This document shows positions 3,459 through 16,780 of a stretch of 35,035 bases of DNA, piece by piece; the first letter of the stretch is position 1, and each line of letters starts with the position of its first letter. Location: positions 1 to 35,035 of the forward strand of contig JAJHQN010000004.1 in the NCBI GenBank assembly GCA_020833325.1. The letters run 5' to 3'. The stretch is from Desulfurococcaceae archaeon. GTDB lineage: Archaea; Thermoproteota; Thermoprotei_A; Sulfolobales; Acidilobaceae. The position numbers and the translations under genes were made by a program. Below the pieces are notes generated by a model. It ran no database searches, had not been told where the DNA came from, and saw only the letters and a list, made by a program, of their open reading frames with translations.

Positions 3459-3483
3459 CCTACCCTAAGGTATGAAAGGAGAG

Positions 3484-3491
3484 CTTTAAAA
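3484..3491. promoter_or_regulatory. TATA box apparently shared by tRNA-Leu and the divergent hypothetical gene
   Basis: The sequence CTTTAAAA reads as a TATA box on both strands. It lies about 35 bases before the tRNA 5' end (3523) on the plus strand and about 28 bases before the ATG at 3458 on the minus strand. Both distances fit archaeal TBP/TFB promoters. No other AT-rich box is available in this short gap, so one box may serve both directions. Confidence 0.5.
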
Positions 3492-3522
3492 CCCCCCATC
3501 ACAAATACATAGGTTAAGTGGA

Positions 3523-3610
3523 GCGGGGGTGCCCGAGCCTGGTCAAAGGGGTCGGGCTGAGGACCCGATGGCGTAGGCCTGCGTGGGTTCAAATCCCACC
3601 CCCCGCACCA
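3523..3610 (+). tRNA. tRNA-Leu (GAG anticodon), CCA encoded
   Basis: A complete class II cloverleaf can be drawn: acceptor GCGGGGG pairing with CCCCCGC, discriminator A at 3607 and encoded CCA at 3608-3610; D-stem CCC/GGG; anticodon stem TCGGG/CCCGA with loop CTGAGGA, giving anticodon GAG; a long variable arm; and T-arm GTGGG-TTCAAAT-CCCAC. The long variable arm and GAG anticodon identify leucine. There is no intron. The gene is followed by a 1.15 kb gene-free region and two genes of unknown function, so the tRNA could have served as an integration site, although no 3'-end duplicate was found. Confidence 0.95.
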
Positions 3611-4765
3611 AACACCACTCCCAGCTAGGCCACCATCAAACCCGAGTTACCAGCTGGCACTAACCTTAGAAATTCTAATGTAGGGTTGACGACTCAAAAT
3701 AATCATTGAGTATCACGAGGGACCCTAAACCTCAAGAGCTTCAAACCATAGCTAAAAACCCTCGATGTTAGAGCTCCAAAGACTGTTAGCCATGTTGAGG
3801 GGTTACTATGAGCTTAGATAGCGGGGGTTACTTTAGCCTATCTAGCTCTAAAACCCCCACTCCAACGGCTTGACTTCACCCTCTAAACACGTTGTAGCTT
3901 TAGAAGGTTGAGCTAGGAGCTCCTGAAACCAGCAATACACGGTTTTGAAGTTTAGAGCTTGCTAGGGGTTACCTCTATGGTAGCGGTAGCTCTTATCACT
4001 CCAGCCTACCTAGTAGAACCCTTATAATCCTCAAGAGTCTAAGGGAGGATGCTAGGTTAGAGGTGGCTTTTTACTATTGGAATCCTTCGATTAGAGTTTA
4101 CAAACCCCATAACAGCCAGCCAAGGCCTTTGTCAATGCCTAAGGTAACATGAAGGCCTCCCTTGGAATCTCTAAAGGTAACCTCCAACCAATGACCGCAC
4201 GCCATTCCATGAGCTCTAGGCAACCTTGCGAGGGAAGCCCCTAAGCTAGTGTGCTCTAAAGCTTAAAACATGGACGTGAGGGTTACTTAAAACAATATGG
4301 GCTTAAGGGCTAGCAGGCTAGGGTAACCTCCATGCCGGAGCTCCTATTAGCGTGCCTAAGACTCTAAGACGTGTTGCTAGGTACCTTGTCATGCTATTAA
4401 AGTAACCCTCACCATTGAGGTTGAGGCTAGAGCTCTAGAGATTAGAAGGACTGGGAGCTTAAACTGGGAGCTCCGAGGCAGAGCTGAGCAAGCTCCAAGT
4501 GGAAACCCTAGAGCTCGTATCCTTGATGCTCAGGGCTGGTTAAGTTGAGCTATGCATGTTCCCTGCAAGCGTATGGAGGCTTTTAGTAGAGAACACTGGG
4601 GAAACTAAGAGAGCTGAGGGAGATGATTTAAGGAAGCCTTGAAGCTCTCCACCTCCTAAATCTCCAAACCTTGGCTTCTAACACTTAAACACGGCTAAGT
4701 CTTCCCATTGAAAATCTAACGTTTATAAGCTACAAGTGTCGGAGTAGGGTCTGTGGGTGTAGTTC
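3611..4765. other. 1.15 kb gene-free region with a repeated GRGGGTTACYT motif
   Basis: No convincing coding frame exists on either strand; stops are frequent in all six frames. At least seven copies of a motif close to GRGGGTTACYT occur within 616 bases, in both orientations: 3797-3807(+), 3823-3834(+), 3963-3974(+), 4173-4185(-), 4276-4288(+), 4320-4331(-) and 4399-4412(-). The 4276 and 4399 copies share the 13-mer GTGAGGGTTACTT. Copy 2 sits in the loop of an 11-bp inverted repeat (AGCTTAGATAG with CTATCTAGCT, 3811-3851). A 10-bp direct repeat ACTGGGAGCT occurs at 4450 and 4463. Function is unknown; an origin, protein-binding array or unrecognised RNA are options. Confidence 0.7.
4722..4729 (+). 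promoter_or_regulatory. TATA box of the 4766 gene
   Basis: TTTATAAG lies about 40 bases before the ATG at 4766. It is the clearest TATA element in the right part of the gene-free region and implies a leader of roughly 12-18 bases. Confidence 0.5.
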
Positions 4766-5569
4766 ATGCCTTCACACGATGTCCATAGGATCTGTGGTTC
4801 TTCAATAGGCCTTCCCAATCATGTTATTGGATTCATTGATAAGCTTATTGATGATGAGAGGAGATGCGGTGTTCACGATATTGGGCTGGAGGTTCTATCT
4901 GTGATGTTGAGCAAGAGGCTTAATATAGGGGTCGCTCTTGATCATGGACTTTCAGCTTTCATGGAATGCCTTAAAGATTACGGGGCGCTCGACGAGATTC
5001 ACCTGAATGCTGCTGCACTACACTTCCTTCTAGACTGTGTGGATAGGAACATGCCTTATTTTGGAACACAAAGGGCAAGAGAGGAGCCGGAGGCATTCCT
5101 ATACTATTGTGCCGAAAAGCTTGAGGAGAAGTGGAGGACGCAGATGTACAGGTACTTTTATTTCAATGCTGAGATGGTTGAGCCGTATATAGAGGATATG
5201 GTCAGGCGGATTAGATCCCTCATAGAAAAACATAAGGGTGTACTCGCGGAGTGCGTCGACATGGTAGCATACGAGAGAGGGGTGAAAGCTAGAATAGGAG
5301 GTGGCGTGGAAGCATTGAAATGGGTTGAAAGAGGGTGGGGTAGCATAGTTGAGATGCTTAAACAGCTGTGCGTGAAAAGGAACGTAAAGCAGGTACTCTA
5401 CGTAAACTGGCAACCTCTACCAGTTGTAGCAGCCGCTAGAAAGGTTGAAAGCCTGCTAAGGAAGGGTGAAACAGTAACCATAATGACCGAGGATGGAGGA
5501 GTTGTGATAACAGCGGGTAGCCTTGAGGAGCTTAGAAATAAGATTACCCAGCTCTTAGACAAAGGTTGA
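4766..5569 (+). CDS. Hypothetical protein, 267 aa, with His/Asp-rich N-terminal region
   Basis: I do not recognise the family with confidence. The N-terminal 125 residues are helical and carry spaced His/Asp pairs (SHDVHR at 3-8, GVHDIG near 37, ALDHG near 57, ALHFLLD near 87), an arrangement resembling metal-binding HD-type phosphohydrolase folds. The C-terminal 60 residues look beta-rich (VKQVLYVNW, TVTIMTEDGG). An in-frame stop directly upstream (4760) fixes the ATG start, and a TATA box lies 40 bases upstream. It is isolated between the gene-free region and a convergent membrane-protein gene, 21 bases apart. Base use is less purine-biased than in neighbouring operons, consistent with an accessory gene. 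The HD reading is inference only. Confidence 0.7.
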   Translation: MPSHDVHRICGSSIGLPNHVIGFIDKLIDDERRCGVHDIGLEVLSVMLSKRLNIGVALDHGLSAFMECLKDYGALDEIHLNAAALHFLLDCVDRNMPYFGTQRAREEPEAFLYYCAEKLEEKWRTQMYRYFYFNAEMVEPYIEDMVRRIRSLIEKHKGVLAECVDMVAYERGVKARIGGGVEALKWVERGWGSIVEMLKQLCVKRNVKQVLYVNWQPLPVVAAARKVESLLRKGETVTIMTEDGGVVITAGSLEELRNKITQLLDKG

Positions 5570-5590
5570 GCCTACAGGCCTATGGAGCCT

Positions 5591-6199
5591 CTAAGCTATC
5601 AAGTCACTTTCTAAAGTGTGATGGATACCCCACACCCTCTTAATGGCTTCAACGAACTCCATAGCCGGCTTCATACCGTAGAAGTACGTGCACACAGTAT
5701 TAGATGGACTCTTAACACAAACTATAAAGATAGCCAATCTTTCAAATTTAACGAACCTTAGGGTAACTCTTGTCACTTCATGCCTGGTAATTCTGCGATC
5801 TCCACCGGCAAGAGGCCCTCCTCTAACAACCAACATGTCCTCATATAATAAGACCTCTATGGGGCCCCTAAGGGTTATTAGGAGAAACACCAATACGGGG
5901 ATCAATGGCACCAAGGGGATAAGGATTGTCTCCTCACCGCACTCTACACTAACACCCCCTGCTGAAGCCTTACAGGATAGCAAAGACATATTACAACGTG
6001 CGTACTCTAGCTTGCATAACTCCTCGCATTCCCTCCAACAATCCACACGCGCATAGTAGTAGAAGGAAAATGCTATTGGAAGGAATATGATCGAGGATAG
6101 TATTAGGCCAACCAGGTTAGCTGTAAACGTAGACCTATCAGAGTATATGGGGGGCCCATAGGCGATCCTAGAGCTCAACCAGCACCCCCAGGTCTCCAA
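5591..6199 (-). CDS. Two-helix membrane protein with Cys-rich loop and cytoplasmic beta domain
   Basis: The protein has two clear membrane segments (about residues 27-48 and 91-109). Between them is a loop with about seven cysteines (CWRECEELC, RCNMSLLSCK), probably outside the cell and disulfide-linked. Residues 115-195 form a beta-rich region (VLLYEDMLVVRGG, VTRVTLRFV) reminiscent of bacterial PH-like domains, then a helix. The marked TTG at 6199 lies very close to the TATA box (minus-strand CATTTATAAAGG, near 6215-6225); the in-frame TTG at 6178 would give a more normal leader. A decayed copy of its 3' half lies directly upstream (6287-6545), so the gene family was once duplicated here. 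Function unknown. Confidence 0.7.
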   Translation of the reverse strand: METWGCWLSSRIAYGPPIYSDRSTFTANLVGLILSSIIFLPIAFSFYYYARVDCWRECEELCKLEYARCNMSLLSCKASAGGVSVECGEETILIPLVPLIPVLVFLLITLRGPIEVLLYEDMLVVRGGPLAGGDRRITRHEVTRVTLRFVKFERLAIFIVCVKSPSNTVCTYFYGMKPAMEFVEAIKRVWGIHHTLESDLIA

Positions 6200-6286
6200 C
6201 TCTCCGCTATGAACCTTTATAAATGCATTGTATCAACCCAGCACATCTACGTCTTAAACCCAGCTCCTACACGAAATCTACAAGGG

Positions 6287-14986: not shown

Positions 14987-15098
14987 AAGGGTAACCCCCT
15001 AGATCCATGTACTATTGCTCAAAGTAGATATGCTATCAACCTCCCCCACATGCCATCCCATCGTCTAATAACGAAGGGTAGGAGCTCGGGATACAGGT

Positions 15099-15106
15099 GA
15101 AAAAAC
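15099..15106 (-). terminator. T-run after the surface-protein gene
   Basis: On the minus strand a run of six T (CATGTTTTTTCACC) lies about 28-35 bases past the stop of the 15134-16780 gene. Archaeal RNA polymerase and FttA terminate at such U-rich tracts. There is no strong hairpin beside it. Confidence 0.4.
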
Positions 15107-15133
15107 ATGTAATATGTGAAAGCCGGTTCTAGC

Positions 15134-16780
15134 CTAAGATCTCCTCAGTAGGAGGCGGGATACAATTAGTGCTATAAGTAACCCTGCTATGAAGGCGGCT
15201 ATCGTGACATCAGCTCTAAGAGTCTCCTCTTTAATTGTTTTAACTAGTGTCTCAAAGCTGGTTACCGTGGAGGTTAACGTCTGAACTTCTCTCACTGTTT
15301 CCCTGACTGTTGTAACCTCTGTTCTAGTCTCTGTCACTCTCAGGGTTTCCCTCACAACCTCTCTCACGGTCGTGGTGAGAAATTGTGTTGCTGTGGTGGT
15401 TTGCGTTATTGTTCTCTCAACTGTTTGAGTCAGCGTTCTTACCTCAGTGGTCGTCGTCGTGATAGTTTGAGTCAATGTTACTGTTACCGGCCTGACCATG
15501 GTGGTTGTAACTGTTGTCGTCTGCGTTACTGTTGTTGTAAGGGTTACTGTTACAGTCTCCGTTACCGTAACCGTGGGGGGTACTGGTGTTGGTGGCGGAG
15601 GTGGTGGGGGCTGTAGTCTCACAACGTATAACACCCACTGTAAATCCCCAGGCTCCCGGTCAAACCCAGCTATGTACGCTACATCGCCTACCAATAGGAT
15701 CCCGTAGGCGTAGGAGTCGTAGGCTTTCTCATCTAGATGCCTTTTAACCAGCATGTTTAGATCTCTATCTAGCACGTAGATAGTGCTCCTCACGTAACCA
15801 CCATACTCCTCGCCTACAGCCACAAGGTACCCTTGCGTGTAGGCAACATCTCTTATGACTGTGATAGTATCATTAAACCTTGCTACCTTCAATATCGAGC
15901 CATCGCTACTAAGCTTAACAACAGCACTCCCCACAAAACCGGTTTGAAGCCGTGTTAATCCAACGACATAAGCGTTACCTTCACCATCAAAGGCTATGGA
16001 TGAAGCAGAGCCCTCAACATCCAAGGTGAGGTTTTTAACGGAGCTCATATCACGTGGATCCACTATACTTATAAACCACCTTAATGCTAAAGAGCTGAGG
16101 TCAATCTTAGCCCCTACAATCCAAAGGTAGCCCTTGGTAGGCTCTAAACCCAACCCTCCCAGCTGTATAGCATATCCTGGTTCAACCTTTGGTCTAAACA
16201 CTACAACTCTATTAAAGTCTCTATCAAACTTATCCACTCTCGCTGTAATCTCCAGAGGTCTAATCTCGATTCCACCAACGTATAGGTACTCGCCATCTGT
16301 TATGGCTGAGCTCGGATTACCTTGAACCCATTCTAAATCCCTGATGGTATAGTTGCTGAGATCCAGTTTAGAGATCATGAGCTTTGCTTTTAAATCTGCT
16401 AGGAGACCTGTAAGGGTTATGTTGGTGAAGGGGATTACGAGGTGTGAGCTGAATATAGCACAGCCGCTTGGATGACCGTCAATGTTAATATGGCTCTTTA
16501 ACTCCACCCCATTAAGCCATGCCTCCACCCTACCTCTAGCCGTTTGAAAATCCCTCGTGATGTTTATGAAGCCCACCAAGTACACCATGCCGTTGTTCTC
16601 ACATACCCACATCGCTTGATCATCATTCCTGGTAGGATTGCTCTTGGTGATGTGTAACACCTCTAACACGAAACCCTCCTGGCTTTGAATGATACCCCCA
16701 GGGTGTGCTTGAGGATATGCTTGTACAAGCAATGCTACTATGGCTATGGAGGCTATTACTGTGATAACATGTTTGCCCAC
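15134..16780 (-). CDS. Membrane-anchored cell-surface protein with Thr/Val-rich stalk
   Basis: A 548-residue exported protein. Residues 1-22 are a signal peptide (VITVIASIAIVALLVQAYP). Residues 40-390 form a beta-rich domain with repeated units (YLYVGGIEI, NAYVVGLT, YLVAVGEEY, DVAYIAGFD), suggesting a beta-propeller. A hinge LQPPPPPPPTPVPP follows, then about 125 residues dominated by Thr, Val, Glu and Arg (TVTETVTVTLTTTVTQTTT), and a C-terminal membrane helix IAAFIAGLLIALIVSRLLL with a basic end. Such a stalk plus anchor is typical of crenarchaeal S-layer-associated proteins; the Thr residues are likely glycosylated. The ligand or enzymatic role is unknown. The ATG start is preceded by GAGGGTGAGGG. 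Confidence 0.85.
   Translation of the reverse strand: MGKHVITVIASIAIVALLVQAYPQAHPGGIIQSQEGFVLEVLHITKSNPTRNDDQAMWVCENNGMVYLVGFINITRDFQTARGRVEAWLNGVELKSHINIDGHPSGCAIFSSHLVIPFTNITLTGLLADLKAKLMISKLDLSNYTIRDLEWVQGNPSSAITDGEYLYVGGIEIRPLEITARVDKFDRDFNRVVVFRPKVEPGYAIQLGGLGLEPTKGYLWIVGAKIDLSSLALRWFISIVDPRDMSSVKNLTLDVEGSASSIAFDGEGNAYVVGLTRLQTGFVGSAVVKLSSDGSILKVARFNDTITVIRDVAYTQGYLVAVGEEYGGYVRSTIYVLDRDLNMLVKRHLDEKAYDSYAYGILLVGDVAYIAGFDREPGDLQWVLYVVRLQPPPPPPPTPVPPTVTVTETVTVTLTTTVTQTTTVTTTMVRPVTVTLTQTITTTTTEVRTLTQTVERTITQTTTATQFLTTTVREVVRETLRVTETRTEVTTVRETVREVQTLTSTVTSFETLVKTIKEETLRADVTIAAFIAGLLIALIVSRLLLRRS
15230..15620 (-). repeat. Low-complexity stalk-encoding tract
   Basis: This internal part of the surface-protein gene repeats near-identical short units coding for TVT, TQT, TTV and TVRE blocks after a seven-proline run. 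The repetition makes slippage and length variation likely, and creates long open frames on the opposite strand that are not genes. Confidence 0.75.

Follow-up and report, generated by a model that had tools for sequence, protein, structure and literature searches.

Introduction

Several described systems place a short DNA word at many sites of one genome. SegB of Saccharolobus solfataricus has about 46 sites of 13 bp on the chromosome, which lie mostly within genes and show some clustering (PMC12284271). The SegB site is a palindrome, TCTAGASTCTAGA (core AGASTCT), and its clustering is at segAB. Replication origins of the Orc1/Cdc6-ORB type carry repeated boxes in both orientations within a gene-free stretch (PMC4010727). 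HIP1 of cyanobacteria is a short palindrome iterated in genic and intergenic DNA of one lineage at about one copy per kb (PMC6604393), and the DNA uptake sequences of Neisseria and Pasteurellaceae are lineage-specific words of 9-13 bp that occur on both strands, sometimes as inverted pairs, in roughly at least 1,000 copies (PMC1852404).

The locus analysed here lies in a window of 35,035 nucleotides (contig C42 of G000, a 1.45-Mb assembly in 114 contigs) from a Desulfurococcaceae archaeon. A gene-free kilobase 3' of its tRNA-Leu(GAG) gene carries seven copies of the core of a non-palindromic word that recurs across this genome and that of a sister species (G002). We argue that docking sites for a DNA-binding protein, and not a replication origin, probably occupy this gap. 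The question bears on chromosome organization and segregation in crenarchaea outside the SegAB-bearing groups, and the confinement of a 13-bp word to one small lineage provides a natural comparison between two genomes that have it and four congeners that do not.

Results

The array beside tRNA-Leu(GAG)

A word scan of the window places GGTTAC seven times within 3801-4407, four copies on the forward strand and three on the reverse, with starts at 3801, 3826, 3967, 4177(-), 4281, 4323(-) and 4402(-). The features of the locus are:

3523..3610, forward strand: tRNA-Leu(GAG) gene (ARAGORN; Rfam RF00005), with the array in its expanded 3' flank
3611..4765, no strand: gene-free stretch following tRNA-Leu(GAG), with many GGTTAC and GAGCTC/AGAGCT words and no TTTAAA
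3798..3808, forward strand: motif copy AGGGGTTACTA, two mismatches to GRGGGTTACYT
3823..3833, forward strand: motif copy GGGGGTTACTT, exact GRGGGTTACYT
3964..3974, forward strand: motif copy AGGGGTTACCT, one mismatch to GRGGGTTACYT
4175..4185, reverse strand: motif copy GGAGGTTACCT, one mismatch to GRGGGTTACYT
4278..4288, forward strand: motif copy GAGGGTTACTT, exact GRGGGTTACYT
4321..4331, reverse strand: motif copy GGAGGTTACCC, two mismatches to GRGGGTTACYT
4400..4410, reverse strand: motif copy GAGGGTTACTT, exact GRGGGTTACYT
4766..5569, forward strand: orphan gene of 267 aa adjoining the array, found among 60 genomes only in this one and the sister
5591..6199, reverse strand: orphan gene of 202 aa, found among 40 genomes only in this one and the sister

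The first-pass annotation had described seven GRGGGTTACYT motifs, in both orientations, within 616 bases. All seven GGTTAC/GTAACC cores were relocated at their places; the longer motif is exact in three of them (3823, 4278, 4400-), the other four having one mismatch (3964, 4175-) or two (3798, 4321-). Two further claims of that annotation hold. The sequence reported as common to two copies, GTGAGGGTTACTT, is present at 4276 and inverted at 4400-4412, within a 16-nt inverted repeat that is 94% complementary, and the kilobase is indeed gene-free: no ORF of at least 80 aa lies between 3459 and 4765, the longest in 3611-4765 having 42 aa, and Rfam recognizes only the tRNA. The spacing and orientation of pairs of motif copies follow no rule that we could find.

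The chance expectation given earlier for the core, 0.3 copies at even base composition, becomes 0.39-0.50 in 616 bases under intergenic Markov models, and the cluster stays above chance. GGTTAC is not equally dense in all intergenic DNA: it reaches 6.1 per kb in the gap compared with 0.75-0.92 per kb in intergenic stretches chosen without regard to the motif. With an intergenic background of 0.75 per kb for this genome, the probability of seven or more copies in 1155 bp is about 4e-5, which we estimate, to an order of magnitude, at about 1e-2 once corrected for some 200 kb of intergenic DNA. The gap has a GC content of 0.47 (background intergenic DNA, 0.49), is about 5-fold enriched in GAGCTC and AGAGCT, and lacks TTTAAA, the commonest intergenic word outside it, of which about 4.7 copies would be expected. 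Seven GAGCTC were noted in window positions 3459-4765. A second cluster, absent from the first-pass annotation, consists of six GGTTAC at 14991-15794; it is mostly coding and, falling largely in the C-terminal, Thr/Val-rich portion of gene 15134-16780, is codon-driven.

Turnover of tRNA-Leu 3' flanks

The association with tRNA-Leu recurs in the sister species, the two sisters counting as one evolutionary event rather than two independent ones. GGGTTACY occurs seven times in 2.3 kb of tRNA-Leu 3' flanks in G000 (0.6 expected) and seven times in 2.1 kb in the sister (0.8 expected). The occupied flanks are those of GAG (1155 bp) and TAA (940 bp) in G000 and of CAA (512 bp), CAG (1040 bp) and TAG (486 bp) in the sister. 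The two species thus keep their arrays beside different tRNA-Leu genes, which indicates fast turnover of the flanks. The sister's tRNA-Leu(GAG) locus is unassembled, its contig ending at window position 5371, and a DNA search of relatives with the array matched the tRNA alone.

Such turnover is what the main rival to a protein-binding array would lead one to expect, namely that the flank is a remnant left by some mobile or integrative element inserting 3' of tRNA-Leu, that the words are repeats belonging to this element (iterons or ends, for example) and that the dispersed copies are older debris. Presence or absence at tRNA genes, the pattern looked for in such an element, is observed: the sister species differ in which flanks are occupied, 17 tRNA-Leu genes of four congeners are followed by gaps of only -20 to 421 bp without a single GGTTAC, and where G000 has about 32 bp at tRNA-Leu(CAA), the sister has about 500 bp that include two motif copies. 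Synteny also breaks at tRNA-Leu genes, the DNA that follows CAG in G000 following TAA in the sister. The array is succeeded by the two orphan genes specific to the species pair, and 5371-6226, which carries two orphan genes, is 95% identical to the sister where the neighbouring DNA is 74-85% identical, a similarity that may reflect either recent exchange or strong constraint.

Several observations nonetheless count against such an element. In none of the five is the tRNA 3' end repeated at the far border (the longest shared word, 7-8 nt, is as in shuffles), the flanks resemble one another in short stretches only, and no integrase or viral gene was recognized among the orphan genes tested. The gene at 4766, whose sister copy is cut by a contig end and whose sole named relative is in Acidilobaceae archaeon RSWP17, has no match in viral contigs; orphan genes compared with Pfam and PHROG, a subset of all genes, gave no match, nor did the predicted structure of the 4766 product (pLDDT 63) yield a usable fold match. 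Debris would also be hard to reconcile with the coding copies in excess of a codon-shuffled null described below. We therefore regard mobile-element debris as somewhat unlikely; if the flanks did arise in this way, tRNA-Leu 3' flanks would still be hot spots of turnover.

Other repeats were seen in the same DNA. A family of about 200-300 bp is dispersed in both genomes (L143:3027-3324 on sister contig C47; copies in L042, L090, L091, L093, L139 and L142), with one copy inside a tRNA-Leu flank. The intergenic segment 31771-31950 of the window is probably a member of this family, having further copies in G000 and the sister that are 73-76% identical. Near-identical repeats of about 25 nt, spaced about 64 nt apart and common to both species, were seen as BLAST matches only (L128:33-1511 on G000:C35, L085:28-303 and L158:6210-6448, one of which adjoins tRNA-Ala(CGC)) and look like CRISPR arrays.

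Genome-wide excess of the word

The motif GRGGGTTACYT had been fixed beforehand from the window alone. Whole-genome counts give 43 copies in G000 and 94 in the sister, both incomplete drafts, compared with Markov expectations (order-3 to order-5) of about 11-18 and about 14-20, respectively, and 0-10 copies in 38 other relatives. This over-representation, like the second cluster, goes beyond the first-pass annotation, which had proposed the count. The longer, non-palindromic form GGGGTTACYTWRA occurs 19 times in G000 and 39 times in the sister where 1.4-2.8 are expected, an excess of 7-26-fold over order-3 to order-5 models, and 0-4 times in each of 227 other genomes of the class, its consensus having been derived from the same two genomes that were then used for counting it. 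The intergenic consensus reads gGGGGTTACYTWRA, with information confined to positions -1 to about +12, as one protein footprint would give. No extended similarity of the kind that defines REP/MITE-type repeats surrounds the core word. The genome is fragmented, and distribution across it was judged from genome counts together with sets of stretches; early sets had been picked for motif hits, and key tests were repeated on stretches picked by tRNA.

Part of the excess of the shorter words is compositional, which raises the alternative that the lineage simply favours GGTT/GTTAC-rich words and that the cluster is the tail of their distribution. The top 8-mers relative to four congeners, in stretches picked for motif hits, were GGGGTTAC, GGTTACCT and GGGTTACC. 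In tRNA-picked stretches, not chosen by word, GGGGTTAC exceeds an order-3 Markov model just 2.0-fold, and 282 of the 31,617 8-mers stand above it, placing it 283rd; 8-mer copies of the word in G000 number 213. A reversed-word control had earlier suggested an 8-mer excess of about 8-fold, which Markov models reduced to about 2-fold. Set beside the strong excess of the 13-mer, this 2.0-fold value shows that the longer site carries the sharp signal and that composition explains part of the short-word excess. The cluster, at roughly one in a hundred after whole-genome correction, would be compatible with a distribution tail. Composition alone is improbable, since it accounts neither for a 13-mer that exceeds models 7-26-fold and scarcely occurs in 227 other genomes, even with a consensus taken from the counted genomes, nor for a tRNA-Leu link that holds in each species separately.

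Coding copies and conservation

Coding copies were compared with a null in which synonymous codons are shuffled inside each gene, genes being called by a simple codon score. In tRNA-picked stretches, GGGTTACY occurs 34 times in coding DNA of G000 (17.3 +/- 3.6 after shuffling) and GGGGTTACY 18 times in that of the sister (5.9 +/- 2.2), and no excess was found in the four congeners. Among 80 coding GGGTTAC in alignable DNA, 60% are intact in the sister compared with 39% for composition-matched permutations (P about 1e-4), although 15 other permutations equal or beat the word relative to flanks. Intergenic GGGTTACY is conserved in the sister at 11 of 16 sites, which is not clearly above other words.

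These distributions bear on two further explanations. The length of the site and its intergenic enrichment would suit a transcription factor with a large regulon, but sites lie between convergent genes and within genes as often as upstream of them, and the array gap lacks TTTAAA, elsewhere the commonest intergenic word; we find this explanation quite improbable. A word marking DNA for exchange or recombination, in the manner of DNA uptake sequences or Chi, would likewise be lineage-specific, on both strands and both genic and intergenic, and motif sites do sit in slightly more similar inter-species DNA, a comparison confounded by the way stretches were picked. Copy numbers of 43 to 213 fall far below those of known uptake signals, which reach roughly 1,000 or more (PMC1852404), and no archaeal uptake word turned up in the papers searched, making this reading very unlikely.

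Candidate trans-acting factors

A ParA encoded on contig C88 (sister C123) resembles the pNOB8 ParA (5k5z, 5u1j) among others, in a cassette at G000:C88:9269-10805 (L181) and L182:6553-8083. It overlaps a 202-aa partner whose N-terminus, judged by eye, resembles a ribbon-helix-helix and whose predicted structure (pLDDT 39) gave no usable fold match. The best ParA match in G005 is far weaker than in the motif-bearing G000 and G002, the three genomes compared. No motif clustering was found around the C88/C123 cassette, the sole plausible one for partition that was recognized, and the window has no ParA gene; the link between ParA and the motif is therefore a correlation in three genomes only, and the pNOB8-like cassette, attractive as a partner, lacks a surrounding motif cluster. 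A SegAB centromere was also set aside: matches to TCTAGASTCTAGA in the window with at most three mismatches number 20 where 18.9 are expected by chance, and no segAB-type cassette lies beside the motif cluster. The array may still represent the partition or nucleoid site proposed in the first-pass annotation.

The cdc6/orc1 genes are on contigs C58 and C90, in agreement with the earlier statement that the window has none. In both species tRNA-Leu(CAA) lies two genes upstream of cdc6/orc1 (G000:C58:2735-4482; sister C61); motif-bearing DNA between this tRNA and the cdc6/orc1 operon is present in the sister only. The GGAAAC boxes that had been likened to origin recognition boxes are at chance level: a scan found one ORB-like 13-mer, with two mismatches, at 4494, and eight such in 528 kb. 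A replication origin with the motif repeats as initiator boxes, although suggested by gene-free DNA with repeats facing both ways and by that one flank of the sister two genes from cdc6/orc1, is thus extremely unlikely, given no ORB cluster, no AT-rich element at a GC content of 0.47, cdc6/orc1 genes on other contigs, the same cdc6/orc1 locus of G000 without a motif-bearing flank, and no array in the four congeners.

Discussion

The best reading of the array, and the part of the earlier proposal that endures once its origin branch is dropped, would be a set of binding sites for a sequence-specific protein common to the species and its sister, with chromosome organization or partition as the likeliest role. 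We put it forward tentatively. The sharpness of the 13-mer and its genome range fit a site of about 13 bp, and the excess across the genome, the confinement to one lineage, the footprint-like consensus, the excess and conservation of coding copies and the recurrence at tRNA-Leu all argue in its favour. Counting against it are the absence of clustering at the ParA cassette, the absence of a pair rule, intergenic conservation not clearly above other words, the mere 2-fold excess of the 8-mer and the position of arrays at different tRNA-Leu genes, which would be odd for an essential site.

On this model, a protein of the lineage would recognize the non-palindromic site of about 13 bp, gGGGGTTACYTWRA, in either orientation. 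Good sites number in the tens, are dispersed on the chromosome and are enriched in intergenic DNA; the dense arrays in some tRNA-Leu 3' flanks would load many copies of the protein. Mixed orientation and irregular spacing could then favour protein clusters and bridges to distant sites, the outcome being nucleoid bridging or a centromere-like platform that organizes or partitions the chromosome, analogous to SegB. A more specific version, in which a young lineage-specific chromosome-organizing system uses a protein unlike SegB, with a 13-bp word of its own, and centromere-like arrays that relocate among tRNA-Leu flanks and so end up at different tRNA genes in the sisters, is doubtful; were arrays to move in this way, centromere-like platforms would relocate on short evolutionary timescales. 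The 13-bp word is a ready bait for the candidate protein.

Comparison with known systems

SegB sites, DNA uptake words and REP-type repeats were each considered as a class for the word and set aside on one defining property. Like Orc1/Cdc6-ORB origins (PMC4010727), the array is a gene-free stretch with repeated boxes that face both ways; unlike them, it has no ORBs, no cdc6/orc1 nearby, no AT-rich element and no conservation. With DNA uptake sequences (PMC1852404) the word shares lineage specificity, a length within 9-13 bp, occurrence on both strands and an inverted pair, and differs in having tens to about 200 copies. As with HIP1 (PMC6604393), a short word is iterated in genic and intergenic DNA of one lineage, but HIP1 is palindromic and the word here is non-palindromic and much rarer. 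The closer HIP1 analogue in G000 is a different sequence, GGAGCTCC, which gives a crenarchaeon an iterated palindrome of the HIP1 kind: it is about 6-fold over the codon-shuffled null in coding DNA of both species (94 versus 14.6 and 76 versus 12.3, strands counted twice) and 2-3-fold over it in three of the four congeners. The likeness to SegB (PMC12284271) lies in tens of 13-bp sites dispersed over a crenarchaeal chromosome; where the SegB site is a palindrome clustered at segAB, the word described here is non-palindromic, unrelated in sequence and clustered at tRNA-Leu flanks.
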